In this document: one piece after another, positions 26,062-32,073 of the stretch
Layout of the letters: each line of letters opens with the position of its first letter
How positions within the stretch are numbered: the first letter of the stretch is position 1
Source: Geothrix oryzae
Lineage (GTDB): Bacteria > Acidobacteriota > Holophagae > Holophagales > Holophagaceae
Direction of reading: 5' to 3'
Assembly: GCF_030295385.1 (NCBI RefSeq)
Contig: NZ_AP027079.1
Location: forward strand, 558,001-622,000
DNA length: 64,000 nucleotides
The notes under the pieces: generated by a model
Database searches by the model: none
Seen by the model: only the letters and a program-made list of their open reading frames with translations
Told to the model about the DNA's origin: nothing
Made by a program: the position numbers and the translations under genes

Positions 26062-27756
26062 TCAGATCAACATCAAGGTCCCGAAGGGGGATCCCAGCAG
26101 GGGCGGCCTGCCGGGCAGGCGCTCCTCGTAGAGGCCCGCCAGGCCCACATCGGCGTGGTACAGACTCTTCGGGGGCAGGGAGAGGCCGCGGAAGCAGACC
26201 AGGGCGGACAGGTTGGCGGCGAGGGCGGCCTCGTCGCCGGCCTTGATCTGGGCCGTGCTGAAGGCGCGGGAGGCGGCCTTGTGGTGCCGGAGCCGCTTGC
26301 GGATCCGCTCGAAGAGCACGGCGTAGTCCTCCAGGGGCATGGGCGCCCCCAGGCGCTCCAGGCGATCGAGGGTGGCGAAGGCGTGTAGCAGCACCTGGAC
26401 CGAGACGCGGGTGGGGGAATCGTCGCCGCGGAACCGGGCGTGGATGGCGGCAAAGGCCTGCAGGGGGCCCTGGAGCCGCGCCTTGGTGAAGCCCGCGGCA
26501 TGGGCCAGGTGGGTGCCGAAGATCAGGGAGGTGCCCCGGTCGCCCAGGTCGTAGGGGGCGGTCGTCGCGGCCTCCATCACGGCTTCGAGGCCCTGGCGGA
26601 CGAAGCGGTCCATGAGGATGCCCGGCGCGAAGTTGCGGACGCGGGCCCCGTGGGCGAGGACCAGGGCCAGGCGGAAGAACTGGCCGTCCCGGATGCGGAT
26701 GTCCTGCAGCAGCTCCGTCTGGATGCGGTGGACGGCCTCGAAGAGGCGGATCCGCTGCTCGGCCTGTTCCTCATCGTCGGATCGGCCGCCGTCGACCAGG
26801 AAGAGGTCCGCCGCATAGGGCAGGCGCCAGCCGGAGGCGGCCACGGTGGGGGGCAGCACGGCGCGCATGCGATGCGTCGCGGCGTTCAGGCGCTCGCGGT
26901 TGCACCAGAGGTAGGCCCGCTTGGGTTCGTCCCGCGAGGCCCGCAGGAGGCGCACGAGGAAGGCGATCTTGGCGCGGAGGGGCTGCAGGTCGGCCAGGGT
27001 GGGCACCCGGTCGAAGGCTTCCAGCAGGTCCTCGTACTCGCTGACGACGGCGGAGGGCCGGTCGCCGGCGGCCATGCGGTCCACGAGAAAGGAGAGGAGC
27101 CCCGAGGGATCCTCCTTGAAGTGGGCGTAGCTTCCGCCCCGGAGGCTGGAGCCGAAGGCGGTCTGGAGGGAGGCGTCGAGCAGCTCCATCACGGGGGCCT
27201 CGGGCAGGGCGGCCTCGCCGGCGGCCGTGAGCCGGAAATACCCCTCGCCCTCCACCTGGGTGCCCGGAGCAGCCTGCTTCTGGGCCTGGTCGATCTCCCG
27301 GTCCGTGGTGGCCAGGCGATCCAGGCACTCGCGCCCTTCCACCTGCAGGTAGTCCAGGATGCGCTCCAGGTTCGGCAGCACATCCTGGGAACCCTTCACG
27401 CCCCGCACCTGGAGCTTCAGGAGCTCCAGCAGGTCGACGAGCTGGACGGCATCGGGGTCGTCCGGTCTCGGCCCGGCCGGGGCGCCCATGGGGAACAGGC
27501 CCGCCAGGCGGGACTTGGGTGCCAGGCGCCGCTGGAGGCGATCCGCGCAGCCCTTGGCCTCGACGATCTGCCGGTGGGTCTCCTGCAGGGCCTCGTACCG
27601 GCCCTCCAGGCTGGCCTGCAGGGGACGCTGGTCCTTCTGGATGAGCCCCTGGGCGAGGAGGTCGGCCAATCCCTCGCGGCCGATGGCGTCCAGGCGCAGC
27701 GTTTCGGCGGCGACCAGCAGCTTGAGGCGATCGAGCGTGAGAGGGGGCGTTTCCAT
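26062..27756 (-). CDS. Large hypothetical protein, mostly helical
   Basis: Not recognised. From the ATG at 27,756 it has 564 residues, without signal peptide or membrane helix. The N-terminal 150 residues look helical and winged-helix or coiled-coil-like (Glu-Ala-Lys-Gly-Cys-Ala-Asp-Arg-Leu-Gln). The middle holds Asp-Ala-Ser-Leu-Gln-Thr-Ala-Phe-Gly, and the rest is helical repeats. Two earlier ATGs are open (27,777 and 27,807) but no start has a Shine-Dalgarno. Codon use matches the backbone, so this is a resident gene, perhaps lineage-specific. Confidence 0.75.
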   Translation of the reverse strand: METPPLTLDRLKLLVAAETLRLDAIGREGLADLLAQGLIQKDQRPLQASLEGRYEALQETHRQIVEAKGCADRLQRRLAPKSRLAGLFPMGAPAGPRPDDPDAVQLVDLLELLKLQVRGVKGSQDVLPNLERILDYLQVEGRECLDRLATTDREIDQAQKQAAPGTQVEGEGYFRLTAAGEAALPEAPVMELLDASLQTAFGSSLRGGSYAHFKEDPSGLLSFLVDRMAAGDRPSAVVSEYEDLLEAFDRVPTLADLQPLRAKIAFLVRLLRASRDEPKRAYLWCNRERLNAATHRMRAVLPPTVAASGWRLPYAADLFLVDGGRSDDEEQAEQRIRLFEAVHRIQTELLQDIRIRDGQFFRLALVLAHGARVRNFAPGILMDRFVRQGLEAVMEAATTAPYDLGDRGTSLIFGTHLAHAAGFTKARLQGPLQAFAAIHARFRGDDSPTRVSVQVLLHAFATLDRLERLGAPMPLEDYAVLFERIRKRLRHHKAASRAFSTAQIKAGDEAALAANLSALVCFRGLSLPPKSLYHADVGLAGLYEERLPGRPPLLGSPFGTLMLI

Positions 27757-27868
27757 GGGCGGTCGGGCAACTTCCATGCAGGCGGGCAGGTGGGTGGGTA
27801 CCCACAAGTCATCGGTTCTGAGGCGGGGTCACCCAAGAATAGGATGGCTTGGCTTTCCCGACACCAAA

Positions 27869-27931: not shown

Positions 27932-29032
27932 CTACCCGTTCGTCTTGACGAACTGTTCCATGAAGTCCACGAGGGTCTTCACATGATCCACGGTGACGGC
28001 GTTGTAGGTGCTGACGCGGATGCCGCCGATGTCGCGGTAGCCCTTGAGGCCCACCATGCCGGCCTTCTTGGCCTCCTTCACGAACTGGTCGTCCAGCTCG
28101 GGGGTGGGCAGGAAGAAGTCCACATTCATGACGCTACGGTGGGCCTTCTCGGTGACGAAGCCCTTGTAGAAGCCGCTGTGCTTGTCGACACAGCCGTAGA
28201 GCAGCTCGGCCTTCTTCTTGTTGCTGGCCTCGATGGCCTTCAGGCCGCCGATGCTCTTGTTGTAGGCCAGGACATTCCGCAGGATGTAGATGCCGAAAGT
28301 CGGCGGGGTGTTGTAGAGCGAGTTCTTCTCGGCGTGGATCTTGTAGCGCAGGTAGCTGGGCAGGTCCTGGGCCTCGCACATCTCGAGGAAGTCCTCGCGG
28401 ATGATGGTGAGGGTCACGCCGCTGGGGCCGAGGTTCTTCTGGGCGCCGCCGTAGATGAGGCCGAAGGGGCTCACATCAAAGGGACGCCACATGAAATCCG
28501 AGCTCATGTCGCAGATGTAGGGCACATGGCCGACCTTGGGGAACTCGTGCCACTGGGTGCCTTCCACCGTGTTGTTGGAGGTGAAGTGCACGAAGGCGCT
28601 GTCCGGGCCCACCTTGATCTCGTCGGCGTGGGGCAGGCGGCTGAACTTCTGCTCCTTGGTGCTGGCGGCCACGCGCACGCGGTCGCCGGCCACGAGCTTG
28701 GCCTCCTTGGTGGCCTTCTCCGCCCAGTTGCCGGTGACGATGTAGTCGGCCTTCTTGTCGTTGCGGAGCAGGTTCAGCGGGATCATGCCGAAGCTGAGGT
28801 GGGCGCCGCCCTGGAGCAGCAGCACCTTGTAGTTGGAGGGCAGGCCCATCAGCTCCTTGGTGAGGGCGATGGCCTCCTCGTGCACCGCATCGTACTCCTT
28901 CGAGCGGTGGCTGACCTCCATGACGGACATGCCCGTGCCGGCGAAGTCCAGCAGCTCTTCCTGGGCACGCTCGAGGGCGGGCAGCGGCAGGCCCGCCGGG
29001 CCAGCGTAGAAGTTGATCACGCGATGGGTCAT
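27932..29032 (-). CDS. serC: Phosphoserine aminotransferase SerC
   Basis: The 366-residue PLP enzyme converts 3-phosphohydroxypyruvate and glutamate to phosphoserine and 2-oxoglutarate in serine synthesis. It starts Thr-His-Arg-Val-Ile-Asn-Phe-Tyr-Ala-Gly-Pro-Ala, the family hallmark. The Schiff-base Lys lies in Tyr-Gly-Gly-Ala-Gln-Lys-Asn-Leu-Gly-Pro near residue 198. AGGAG precedes the ATG at 29,032; the frame is open further upstream but overlaps serA. It follows serA by 11 bp and is the last gene of the operon. Confidence 0.95.
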   Translation of the reverse strand: MTHRVINFYAGPAGLPLPALERAQEELLDFAGTGMSVMEVSHRSKEYDAVHEEAIALTKELMGLPSNYKVLLLQGGAHLSFGMIPLNLLRNDKKADYIVTGNWAEKATKEAKLVAGDRVRVAASTKEQKFSRLPHADEIKVGPDSAFVHFTSNNTVEGTQWHEFPKVGHVPYICDMSSDFMWRPFDVSPFGLIYGGAQKNLGPSGVTLTIIREDFLEMCEAQDLPSYLRYKIHAEKNSLYNTPPTFGIYILRNVLAYNKSIGGLKAIEASNKKKAELLYGCVDKHSGFYKGFVTEKAHRSVMNVDFFLPTPELDDQFVKEAKKAGMVGLKGYRDIGGIRVSTYNAVTVDHVKTLVDFMEQFVKTNG

Positions 29033-29043
29033 GAAAGCTCCTT

Positions 29044-29916
29044 TTACGCTTTGAAATCCTGAAGAATCTGAACCACCTCGTCGCCGATGCGGCCGAGGTT
29101 CTCCTTGGAGCTGGCGCCCAGGTGCGGGGCCATGAAGACATTGGGGGCGGTGAGCAGGGGGCAGTCCGCGGGCGGCGGGTCGCTGGGCCACACATCGGTG
29201 CCGTAGGCGCGGAGCTTCCCGCTCTGCAGGGCGGCGGCGAGGTCGGCCTCGACCACGCACTTGCCGCGGCCGGTGTTGATGAGGATGGCGCCATCCTTCA
29301 TCTTGGCGAGGAAGGCGGCGTTGATCATGCCCTTGGTGTCATCGGTCAGGGGCGTGTGCAGGCTGACGACATCGGCCTTGGCGGCCAGCTCGTCCAGGCT
29401 CACCATGCGGGCGAGGGGGTGCTCCTTGAGGAAGGGATCAAAGGCGATCACCTCCATGCCGAAGGCCTGGGCGCGCTTGGCGACCTCGGTGGCGATGTTT
29501 CCGGCGCCGATGAGGCCCAGCGTCTTCTTGAAGAGCTCGGTGCGCTTCAGCTCGCTCTTGAGGAACTTGCCCTCCTTCATGGAGGTGTGGGCCTCGATCA
29601 GGCGGGCAGGGATGGCCACCATGAAGGCCATGGCCATCTCTGCCACGGCCACGCTGCTGGCCCTCGGGGTGTTGACGGCCCGGATGCCCTTCTCGGCGCA
29701 GAGTTTCTTGTCCACATTGTCCATGCCCACGCCGCCGCGGATGACGAGCTTGAGGCTGGGGGCCTGGGCGAGAAGGTCGGCGTTCACCTTGGTCTTGGAA
29801 CGGACGAGCAGGACATGGGCCTGCCCCAGGGCGGCCATGTCGGAACTGACCTGCCCGAAGGGGGACAGGCGCTCGGGGAGCTTGGCGTCAAAGGCGTCGG
29901 CGATGAGGATCTGCAT
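29044..29916 (-). CDS. serA: D-3-phosphoglycerate dehydrogenase SerA, short form
   Basis: The 290-residue enzyme oxidises 3-phosphoglycerate with NAD in the first step of serine synthesis. It has Gly-Leu-Ile-Gly-Ala-Gly-Asn-Ile-Ala (NAD loop), Asn-Thr-Gly-Arg-Gly-Lys (catalytic Arg) and Ala-Pro-His-Leu-Gly-Ala-Ser (catalytic His). No C-terminal ACT regulatory domain is present, so classic serine feedback through ACT is unlikely. GGGAGA precedes the ATG. It lies between the DUF1015 gene and serC with 11-bp gaps. Confidence 0.93.
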   Translation of the reverse strand: MQILIADAFDAKLPERLSPFGQVSSDMAALGQAHVLLVRSKTKVNADLLAQAPSLKLVIRGGVGMDNVDKKLCAEKGIRAVNTPRASSVAVAEMAMAFMVAIPARLIEAHTSMKEGKFLKSELKRTELFKKTLGLIGAGNIATEVAKRAQAFGMEVIAFDPFLKEHPLARMVSLDELAAKADVVSLHTPLTDDTKGMINAAFLAKMKDGAILINTGRGKCVVEADLAAALQSGKLRAYGTDVWPSDPPPADCPLLTAPNVFMAPHLGASSKENLGRIGDEVVQILQDFKA

Positions 29917-29927
29917 GGGGTCTCCCT

Positions 29928-31169
29928 TTAACCTTCGTACATCCGGACCAGCAGTCCGGAGCGCAGCTTGGGTTCGAACCAGGTGGACTTGGGGGGCATG
30001 ACTTCGCCGGCATCGGCGACGCTCATGAGCTGGGTGAGCGAGGTCGGATACACGGAGAAAGCCACGGCGCAGCCTTCCTTCACGCGGCGCTCCAGCTCGT
30101 CCATGCCGCGGATGCCGCCCACGAAGTCGATGCGGGTGTTGGTGCGGGGATCGTCGATGCCGAGGATCGGGTTGAGCAGGTTCTCCTGGAGGATGCTCAC
30201 ATCGAGGCCGCGGACGGGGTCGGCGGCGGGGAAGCTGCCGGGCTTGGCCTTCAGCTCGTACCAGGTGCCGCCCAGGTACATCCCGAAGGTGGTGGGGGCC
30301 TGGGGGGCGCGGTGGGCGGAGACGGCCACCTCGAACTTGTCCTTCACCTGGGCGAGGAAGGCGTCCTGGCTCAGGCCGTTCAGATCCTTCACCACGCGGT
30401 TGTAGTCCATGATCTTGAGCTGGTCGTGGGGGAAGACCACGGCCATGAAGCTCTCGAAGGGCTCGTCCCCGGTGGCGCTGGCGCCCGCGGCGGCCCGGCG
30501 GGCCTGGGCGTAGCGGATGGCCGCGGCGGTGCGGTGGTGGCCGTCGGCGATGTAGAGGGCGGGCACGCCGTTGAAGAGGTTCACCAGCTCGTAGACCACG
30601 GTCTCGCCGGAGACGACCCACACGGTGTGGCCGATGCCGTCGGGCGTGACCACATCGTAGACCGGCGGCTGCTTCCGGATGTCGTTGACGATGTGATCAA
30701 TGTAGGGCACAGCCTTGTAGGTGAGGAACACGGGCTCGGCGTTGGCGCCCTGCTCGGTGACATGGCGGGTGCGGTCATCCTCCTTGTCCTTGCGCGTGAA
30801 CTCGTGACGCTTGATGGTGCCGTTCTCGTACTCCGCCACGGAGCAGAGGCCCACCAGGCCCGCCTGGACATGGTCGCCCATGCGCTGCTGATAGACATAG
30901 AGGCAGGGCGTGTTCTCCTGGAACAGGGTGCCGTTCTCGATCAGGCCGCGGAGGTTGGCCACGCCCTTGGCGTAGACCTCGTCGGCATGGATGTCGATGC
31001 CCGCGGGCAGGTCGATCTCGGGGCGGCCCACATGGAGGAAGGAGTGGGGGTTGCCCTTGGCCAGCTCGGCGGCCTCCTGCGTGTTCACCACATCGTAGGG
31101 TACGGCGGCCACCTGGGCGGCGAGTTCAGGCCGGGGGCGGTGGGCGCGGAACGGCTTCAGCTGGGACAT
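29928..31169 (-). CDS. DUF1015-family protein, serine operon
   Basis: The 413-residue protein has Val-Pro-Tyr-Asp-Val-Val near residue 24, His-Glu-Phe-Thr-Arg-Lys-Asp-Lys-Glu-Asp-Asp-Arg near 122, and Tyr-Ile-Ala-Asp-Gly-His-His-Arg-Thr-Ala near 205, all DUF1015 signatures. The Asp-Gly-His-His-Arg motif is reminiscent of the catalytic loop in the ParB/SerK-like superfamily. It is the first gene of an operon with serA and serC. The biochemical role is not established; a link to phosphoserine is inferred from context. Start at 31,169 with CAGGTG upstream. Confidence 0.88.
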   Translation of the reverse strand: MSQLKPFRAHRPRPELAAQVAAVPYDVVNTQEAAELAKGNPHSFLHVGRPEIDLPAGIDIHADEVYAKGVANLRGLIENGTLFQENTPCLYVYQQRMGDHVQAGLVGLCSVAEYENGTIKRHEFTRKDKEDDRTRHVTEQGANAEPVFLTYKAVPYIDHIVNDIRKQPPVYDVVTPDGIGHTVWVVSGETVVYELVNLFNGVPALYIADGHHRTAAAIRYAQARRAAAGASATGDEPFESFMAVVFPHDQLKIMDYNRVVKDLNGLSQDAFLAQVKDKFEVAVSAHRAPQAPTTFGMYLGGTWYELKAKPGSFPAADPVRGLDVSILQENLLNPILGIDDPRTNTRIDFVGGIRGMDELERRVKEGCAVAFSVYPTSLTQLMSVADAGEVMPPKSTWFEPKLRSGLLVRMYEG

Positions 31170-31332: not shown

Positions 31333-32073
31333 TCAGACCTCGTCGGACGCGGGTCTCCGCTGGTCGGTGATCAGGGCGGCGTTCATCAGGAGCTCGGTCA
31401 GGGGGAGGTCGATGGTCCGCTCCACCCGGCAGGTCTCCACGAATTCGATGTCCGGGCGGTCCCAGCACAGGATCTCGTAGGCGGCGGGGAGGCTCTCCTG
31501 GTCCTGGAAGGCGGCGTGGATGAGCTCGCCCCGCTTGAGGTAGAGCAGCCCCATGCCTGCCCCGGACTTCACGGTGAGGGTGCAGGACTTCTGCTCCCAG
31601 TTGAGGAGCTGGAGGATGCTGTTGAGGCTGATGCCCCGGATCATGCCCGCGGGCTCGAACTGGGCCGCGGCGCGGATGGCGTCCATGAGGATGGTGAGGC
31701 GCGGGGGCTTGGTGAGGATGCGGACGGCTCCGAGCTGCAGGGGGGTGTTCAGGTGCTGGGTCGCATCCAGGCCGGTCATGACGATGACGGGCACCTGGGG
31801 GTAGAAGCGGCTCACCTTGGCGATGAGGTTGAAGCCGTCCATCACCGGCATGTTCAGATCCGTGACCAGCACATTCACCGCTTCCTGGCGCAGCACATCC
31901 AGGGCCTGGGCCCCGTTCTGGGCCATGAGGATCCGGAAGCCCTGGAGGCCCTTCAGGCCGGCGCGGTAGAGGCTCAGGGTGGCGCGGTCATCCTCCACCA
32001 CCAGCAGCGTCTTGGCGGGGAGCTCGGGCTGGGGCAGGGGGCGGGGGCGGGCAGGCAGGTTCATGGGGTCCAT
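31333..32073 (-). CDS. Response regulator with C-terminal DUF4388 domain
   Basis: The 246-residue protein has a REC domain (about 20-140) with Val-Val-Glu-Asp-Asp and phospho-acceptor Asp in Val-Thr-Asp-Leu-Asn-Met-Pro, switch Thr in Val-Met-Thr-Gly, and Lys in Leu-Thr-Lys-Pro-Pro. The remainder matches DUF4388/PATAN-like domains (Gly-Ile-Ser-Leu-Asn-Ser-Ile-Leu-Gln-Leu-Leu). Such proteins act in motility or signalling without DNA binding. No partner kinase is in the window. It closes a run of minus-strand genes. Confidence 0.9.
   Translation of the reverse strand: MDPMNLPARPRPLPQPELPAKTLLVVEDDRATLSLYRAGLKGLQGFRILMAQNGAQALDVLRQEAVNVLVTDLNMPVMDGFNLIAKVSRFYPQVPVIVMTGLDATQHLNTPLQLGAVRILTKPPRLTILMDAIRAAAQFEPAGMIRGISLNSILQLLNWEQKSCTLTVKSGAGMGLLYLKRGELIHAAFQDQESLPAAYEILCWDRPDIEFVETCRVERTIDLPLTELLMNAALITDQRRPASDEV

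Follow-up and report, generated by a model that had tools for sequence, protein, structure and literature searches.

A DUF1015 protein encoded with SerA and SerC in Geothrix oryzae: a candidate for the missing step from phosphoserine to serine

The DUF1015-serA-serC operon and its genome

The window, a stretch of 64,000 nucleotides from the genome of Geothrix oryzae, carries DUF1015, serA and serC as a tight minus-strand operon running from 31169 to 27932. The first gene (29928..31169, minus strand) encodes a DUF1015 (PF06245) protein of 413 amino acids (Pfam E 1.5e-109), which scores 366.3 bits against the curated Pfam model (cut-off 25.8), covers the full model (1-325) and has a start that agrees with that of the family. 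After a gap of 11 nt follows a short form of serA, 3-phosphoglycerate dehydrogenase (29044..29916, minus strand; 290 aa; PF02826 E 4.9e-59); its 277.6 bits against TIGR01327 remain under the 454-bit cut-off because the match spans only positions 35-298 of 525. Another 11 nt separate serA from the phosphoserine transaminase gene serC (27932..29032, minus strand), with the initiating Met set at 29032, and the product exceeds the cut-offs of both NF003764 (477.2 bits; cut-off 253) and TIGR01364 (469.1 bits; cut-off 443.6). Ribosome sites of the AAAGG type are found upstream of serA and serC. A sequence-only reading of this locus had proposed a serA-serC operon led by DUF1015, and this held in its coordinates, gaps and profile matches.

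The genome is complete (one contig of 3.27 Mb) and contains a single copy of DUF1015. No SerB exceeds the TIGR00338 cut-off anywhere in it, the top match being 35.3 bits, against a cut-off of 144, within a 940-aa frame. The DUF1015 protein itself has no NCBIfam match at E 0.001, and so none to TIGR00338. That reading had also noted that no serB is present at the locus, and had named a clear serB elsewhere as a finding that would speak against its proposal; the absence extends genome-wide in the TIGR00338 profile search, and no clear serB came to light.

One rival explanation is that a generic HAD or histidine phosphatase converts phosphoserine to serine, DUF1015 being regulatory or accessory in a serine operon. 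In its favour, two small HAD proteins exceed the broad PF12710 cut-off and three His_Phos_1 proteins exceed theirs, and in other bacteria members of both superfamilies are established or suggested phosphoserine phosphatases (PMC9026213). Against it, the HAD candidates are phosphoglycolate-phosphatase-like or resemble nothing named, all under cut-offs, and none lies inside the operon; nor did the histidine phosphatases reach any named family over its cut-off. The regulatory role, which had been suggested as an alternative at the outset, finds little favour given the invariance of the catalytic residues described below, since a regulator would not need them. We regard this explanation as unlikely.

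Fold and conserved residues

The AlphaFold2 model of the DUF1015 protein is confident (pLDDT 92.6). When it was compared with the PDB using Foldseek, the only significant matches were nine SerK/SbnI entries (E 1.9e-8 to 4.4e-6), the next having E 0.04. These matches give Z values of 11.8-13.6 across 213-224 residues, the best of them (Foldseek E 1.9e-8, VIA Z 13.6) taking in 220/240 residues; the model thus predicts that DUF1015 has the SerK/SbnI three-dimensional fold. SerK of Thermococcus kodakarensis (TK0378; PDB 5x0b-5x0k), an ADP-dependent free serine kinase, has the fold in common with DUF1015 over 215-224 residues (Z 12.2-13.6). SerK converts serine to phosphoserine and uses neither ATP nor PPi (PMC5120207). 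SbnI (PDB 5uje, 6nr6), a free serine kinase encoded in staphylococcal siderophore loci, matches with Z 11.8-12.5; its phosphate donor is ATP. To judge by a reference title SbnI supplies siderophore synthesis, whereas DUF1015 adjoins serA and serC.

The link to SerK emerged through the fold alone, and no sequence search showed it. Searches of PDB sequences with the DUF1015 protein and with a 22-row profile gave no match, and while SerK matches both SerK_C (PF18231) and ParB_N (PF02195) in Pfam, DUF1015 matches neither at E 1 or less. Global alignment to SerK with hhalign failed and a local run returned only short separate pieces; the sequence evidence by itself is therefore weak. The proteins also differ in length, DUF1015 having 413 residues compared to 242 in SerK, with approximately 88 extra residues at the N-terminus and an inserted stretch separating the Glu motif from DGHHR.

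Three motifs are conserved among the 96 aligned DUF1015 proteins. His122-Glu123 (30801..30806, minus strand) is invariant in 96/96, and Glu123 corresponds to the catalytic Glu30 of SerK, a residue known to us as mutated from the PDB titles (E30Q/E30A). The register supports this pairing, KRHE120-123 in DUF1015 and KPHE27-30 in SerK each starting 25 residues ahead of the next common motif. The loop Asp209-Gly-His-His-Arg213 (30531..30545, minus strand) is likewise invariant (96/96) and is the same loop as D69-R73 of SerK. Near the C-terminus, MPPKSTWFEPK (residues 391-401; 29967..29999, minus strand) is invariant at 10 of 11 positions (n=96), position 395 being S in 85 proteins and T in 8; it corresponds to GEVYSPKTTR (215-224) of SerK by a local hhalign match of 45 columns (E 1.1e-4, probability 57%). 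The K-x-H-E Glu, DGHHR and C-terminal GEV-x2-PK-[ST]-T occur in identical order in SerK and DUF1015. When the motifs were combined into one pattern, 7/96 proteins did not match it as written, and the correspondence with SerK rests on motif order and register, without residue-by-residue structural superposition.

The DGHHR loop had been likened to that of ParB/SerK-like enzymes, a likeness that is real at the level of the fold in the case of SerK. The N-terminal CTPase fold of ParB and sulfiredoxin are only distantly related to DUF1015 (Z 4.4 and 5.2, respectively, both under 8). DGHHR sits at the phosphate-binding position of ParB, and the DNA-binding or clamp parts of ParB were not found in DUF1015. 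We give little weight to a reading of DUF1015 as a ParB-like DNA clamp.

Neighbourhood, T-box leaders and co-occurrence with SerB

Eighty named loci from many phyla were gathered by DUF1015 similarity alone; four of these (L064, L083, L089 and L129), in which no DUF1015 gene was called, were kept in the denominator. Relatives of serA occur in 38/80 loci and relatives of serC in 34/80, compared to only 8/80 for the next neighbour cluster. They are the only strongly recurrent neighbours of DUF1015, and from these counts we conclude that the grouping is not due to chance. One or the other is near DUF1015 in 43/80 loci and both in 29/80; neither is in 37/80, several of which are short contigs. DUF1015 and SerC start less than 6 kb apart in 71 of the 114 genomes of the same phylum in which both places were compared (51/94 outside the genus of the window), a count that took in 149/223 DUF1015 genomes and 125/143 SerC genomes and excluded the weakest SerC rows.

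That DUF1015 acts on another nearby phosphate compound, such as phosphohydroxypyruvate, phosphoglycerate or phosphothreonine, its link to serine being indirect, is conceivable, since the substrate is only inferred and the protein is larger than SerK at its N-terminus and by its insertion. The fold match points to serine kinases specifically, and the recurrent neighbours include serC as well as serA, which makes this rival very improbable.

In three clostridial loci (L070, L076 and L057) a T-box leader lies ahead of serC-serA-DUF1015. The specifier codon, read by eye, is that for serine (UCC), which argues for induction by serine shortage and hence for the biosynthetic direction. A glycine riboswitch has been described upstream of COG4198 genes (PMC2211319), which we take to be DUF1015; none was found at the 30 of 80 DUF1015 loci that were scanned.

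SerB (the HAD-type phosphoserine phosphatase, TIGR00338), which has an unrelated fold and acts at the step proposed here for DUF1015, is rarely found alongside it. DUF1015 is present in 223/247 genomes sampled from the phylum of the window (Acidobacteriota), and only 6/223 have SerB over the cut-off. SerB exceeds its cut-off in 0/40 DUF1015-bearing genomes of diverse phyla and in 0/196 Clostridia, 160 of which have DUF1015. Among the 143 SerC-bearing genomes of the phylum, all 6 without DUF1015 show a SerB-like match of at least 66 bits, compared to 9/137 with it; the 6/6 result stems from two families. At the strict cut-off the anticorrelation in the phylum is not significant (2/24 without versus 6/223 with DUF1015, p 0.18), and at family level it is weak (5/9 versus 12/65, p 0.026). 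Of eight Clostridia with SerC and without DUF1015, seven lack any SerB-like match at E 1e-12, so other phosphatases exist. Genomes without DUF1015 were in part (4/24 in the phylum, 16/36 in Clostridia) identified by exclusion. Among three control genomes that have DUF1015, two (Bacteroides ihuae and Methanosarcina acetivorans) also carry SerB.

A further rival is that DUF1015 is a forward free serine kinase like SerK, making phosphoserine for cysteine or returning serine carbon to 3-phosphoglycerate via reversed SerC and SerA. The sole significant fold matches are indeed serine kinases with the same catalytic residues, serK adjoins serA and an aminotransferase in some Desulfurococcales (PMC5120207), and the two control genomes hold both proteins. 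Against this, the serine-specific T-boxes imply expression in serine starvation, and SerB-less genomes with SerA and SerC would be left without a route to serine by this pathway. A CysE-like serine acetyltransferase is also encoded in the genome of the window (169 bits, under its cut-off of 210.65), such that cysteine need not derive from phosphoserine. We consider a forward kinase unlikely.

Proposed reaction and significance

We lean, with a probability of roughly 0.62, towards DUF1015 being a SerK-fold enzyme that takes the phosphate off phosphoserine, a non-orthologous replacement of SerB; substrate, direction, acceptor and activity are inferred. Points against this reading include that SerK itself runs from serine to phosphoserine, that SerB accompanies DUF1015 in the control genomes named above, and that the anticorrelation with SerB in the phylum is weak. 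In its setting DUF1015 differs from SerK, being found in a biosynthetic, SerB-less context. In this view the cytosolic protein, with its SerK/SbnI (ParB/sulfiredoxin-like) fold, would complete the phosphorylated serine pathway of SerB-less bacteria by converting O-phosphoserine to serine. Phosphoserine would be placed as in SerK, with the DGHHR loop and the PPK-S-T motif near the C-terminus gripping its phosphate. Glu123 would be in contact with the oxygen of serine and, for a reaction in this direction, would protonate serine as it leaves. The phosphate acceptor may be water, which we favour, or a small acceptor such as Pi. Action on phosphoserine, which the sequence-only reading had raised as a possibility, is thus supported by neighbourhood, co-occurrence and T-boxes, with enzymatic activity unproven. 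The assay it had suggested, phosphoserine plus ADP, needs correction, as phosphate transfer in that direction is energetically uphill.

A bolder and unlikely version is that DUF1015 transfers the phosphate without hydrolysis, for instance to Pi, yielding PPi, or to a nucleotide. If this were true, a serine pathway that rests on the ParB/SerK fold working in reverse, and that recovers phosphate energy rather than losing it, would be common among anaerobes, Clostridia and Thermotoga included.

Non-orthologous replacement of SerB has a precedent in the histidine-phosphatase-type phosphoserine phosphatases (Hydrogenobacter type, "SerB2"; PMC9026213), which belong to a different superfamily (PF00300). 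No function has been assigned to DUF1015/COG4198 in the open-access literature searched, and papers outside that scope could exist; a "DU1015" fusion is among proteins picked for nucleotide binding and is not named as a binder in the relevant sections (PMC12704722). That a phosphoserine phosphatase can be missing is itself well documented: SerA and SerC without any of four SerB types occur in 450 gut Firmicutes genomes (PMC9026213), and the enzyme is missing in Caldithrix abyssi (PMC5317091) and Desulfovibrio vulgaris (PMC5764234), the presence of DUF1015 in those particular genomes being unchecked. If DUF1015 fills this gap, a function would be gained for a family present in 223/247 genomes of the phylum and 160/196 Clostridia, many wrong auxotrophy predictions would be corrected, and a ParB-like fold would be found at work in core biosynthesis.

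The serine operon and its neighbourhood

The DUF1015 gene (31169-29928, minus strand; 413 aa) is the first of a closely spaced trio, followed on the same strand by serA (29916-29044; 290 aa) and serC (29032-27932). The ATG at 31169 is preferred over a longer frame from 31217, as it fits the family start M-x-x-x-KPF. On the same strand, a response regulator-DUF4388 fusion (31333-32073) lies upstream of the operon, and a 581-aa open frame without Pfam or NCBIfam match (26062-27807) lies immediately 3′ of serC.

A single DUF1015-profile scan of named genomes gave 80 loci from Acidobacteria (source of the closest named relatives of the window's DUF1015), Clostridia, Bacteroidota, Gemmatimonadota, Planctomycetes, Verrucomicrobia and others. 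When all predicted neighbours were clustered, with no prior choice of gene, two large families appeared besides DUF1015, serA (38/80) and serC (34/80); the third-ranked reached only 8. Either gene is nearby in 43 loci and both in 29; the remaining 37 have neither, several of these being on short contigs. Among control genes from the window, a response regulator recurs in 4 loci and the others in none, and E. coli SerB as query found no match in any of the 80. DUF1015 and SerC starts lie at most 6 kb apart in 71 of 114 compared genomes of the window's phylum (51 of 94 outside the genus).

An Rfam scan of 30 DUF1015 loci revealed a T-box leader immediately 5′ of serC-serA-DUF1015 in three, all Clostridia (L070, 4275-4476; L076, 4553-4758; L057, 4464-4658). 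Read from the alignments by the usual rule for specifier position, the apparent specifier of each is UCC, a serine codon. T-boxes activate expression when their cognate tRNA lacks its amino acid; a serine specifier therefore indicates that this clostridial operon serves serine synthesis. A glycine riboswitch has been described before genes of COG4198, which we take to be DUF1015 and which was termed uncharacterized there (PMC2211319); none was found in the 30 loci. In a Lachnospiraceae MAG (L075), a THF riboswitch lies just 3′ of the DUF1015 gene (1979-2075).

Predicted fold and active-site residues

Pfam recognises the window protein solely as DUF1015, a family of unknown function, and sequence searches of the PDB found no match. 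A structure predicted from an alignment of 22 sequences, all from the window's phylum, has a mean pLDDT of 92.6 and a pTM of 0.88. Foldseek against the PDB gave nine significant matches (E 1.9e-8 to 4.4e-6), Pyrococcus 1vk1 among them, every one an entry for SerK, the ADP-dependent serine kinase known from Thermococcus, or for SbnI; the tenth match is already at E 0.04. VIA-align superimposes 213-224 residues, mostly model residues 88-413, on SerK/SbnI with Z of 11.8-13.6, far above sulfiredoxin (5.2) and ParB (4.4).

The SerK motifs K27-P-H-E30 (the catalytic Glu30 is mutated in several PDB entries), K52-P-M-L-L, D69-G-H-H-R73 and G215-E-V-Y-S-P-K-T-T-R224 correspond, in identical order, to K120-R-H-E123, E145-P-V-F-L, D209-G-H-H-R213 and G388-E-V-M-P-P-K-S-T-W397 of the window protein, and the starts of the first two motifs are 25 residues apart in both. 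H122, E123, D209-R213, M391-K394, T396 and W397-K401 show no variation among the 96 aligned DUF1015 proteins; at position 395, 85 proteins have S and 8 have T, and the combined pattern is found in 89 of the 96. In local hhalign comparison with SerK, the C-terminal piece is supported by a 45-column match (E 1.1e-4, probability 57%); the DGHHR piece is matched separately, at low probability. The sequence-only reading had likened the Asp-Gly-His-His-Arg loop to ParB/SerK-like enzymes; the SerK likeness held, on predicted fold and shared motifs, and that to ParB is weak. Fold and residues thus probably denote a serine or phosphoserine enzyme, a prediction from a model without activity data.

SerB and DUF1015 across genomes

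That reading had also noted no serB and proposed a search elsewhere in the genome. The absence held: in this single contig of 3,265,981 bases (completeness rating 100%), the best TIGR00338 score is 35.3 bits against a cut-off of 144, within a 940-aa frame. The broad HAD model PF12710 finds part of that frame and two small proteins over cut-off; in NCBIfam one of the latter is phosphoglycolate-phosphatase-like, below cut-off, and the other matches almost nothing. Three proteins exceed the His_Phos_1 cut-off; in NCBIfam one of them resembles SixA at a score below cut-off, and no named phosphoserine family is reached by any of the three. No dedicated phosphoserine phosphatase is visible; since these HAD and His_Phos_1 proteins are present, albeit without phosphoserine-specific match, a generic phosphatase remains possible.

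Among 247 genomes of the phylum, DUF1015 is found in 223, and SerC and SerB over cut-off in 143 and 8. SerB-like matches of at least 66 bits occur in 15/24 genomes without DUF1015 versus 21/223 with it (p 8e-9), and at 80 bits in 13/24 versus 15/223; with families as units the figures are 5/9 versus 12/65 (p 0.026). At the strict cut-off there is no significant anticorrelation (2/24 versus 6/223, p 0.18). Among SerC-bearing genomes, 6/6 without DUF1015 have a SerB-like match versus 9/137 with it, the former amounting to about two independent cases because five of the six share one family.

Of 196 Clostridia, 160 have DUF1015, 113 SerC and none SerB over cut-off; SerC accompanies DUF1015 in 105/160 versus 8/36 without it (p 3e-6). 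At E 1e-12, a SerB-like match turns up in one of these eight. The other seven (genomes G289, G292, G313, G345, G351, G401 and G458) have none and may require a further kind of phosphoserine step. Of 40 DUF1015 genomes of diverse phyla, hand-picked from the 80 loci, 0 have SerB over cut-off (best score 103.5 bits). Among 14 control genomes SerB exceeds cut-off in 7 and DUF1015 is found in 3: Thermotoga maritima, where SerB is not over cut-off, and Bacteroides ihuae and Methanosarcina acetivorans, which have both.

A putative phosphoserine phosphatase

With SerB absent and a T-box in the clostridial loci, the operon setting probably places DUF1015 at the last step of serine synthesis, its activity being inferred. 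SerK converts serine to phosphoserine with ADP, rejecting ATP and PPi (PMC5120207). Phosphoserine is a low-energy ester, so the reverse of this reaction, with ADP or AMP as acceptor, would be uphill; hydrolysis to serine would be the simplest solution, and we therefore lean towards a phosphoserine phosphatase on a kinase fold (probability roughly 0.62), with activity, substrate and direction all inferred. The earlier suggestion that DUF1015 may act on phosphoserine is to this extent favoured, on fold, residues, operon, SerB absence and T-box. A bolder alternative, phosphotransfer from phosphoserine, for instance to Pi with removal of PPi, is improbable, though not excluded. The main rival, a forward serine kinase, we also consider unlikely; its cysteine-supply version is weakened by a CysE-like acetyltransferase in the window's genome. 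This 318-aa protein (locus L133, 1072-2028) scores 169 bits, below the 210.65 cut-off.

The missing-phosphoserine-phosphatase gap is well documented (PMC9026213, PMC5317091, PMC5764234), and a 2025 ParB-fold survey (PMC12704722) includes a "DU1015" fusion with no stated function in the sections bearing on it. What is new is that a variant of a known fold family would, if the inferred function is correct, take its place in a known pathway.
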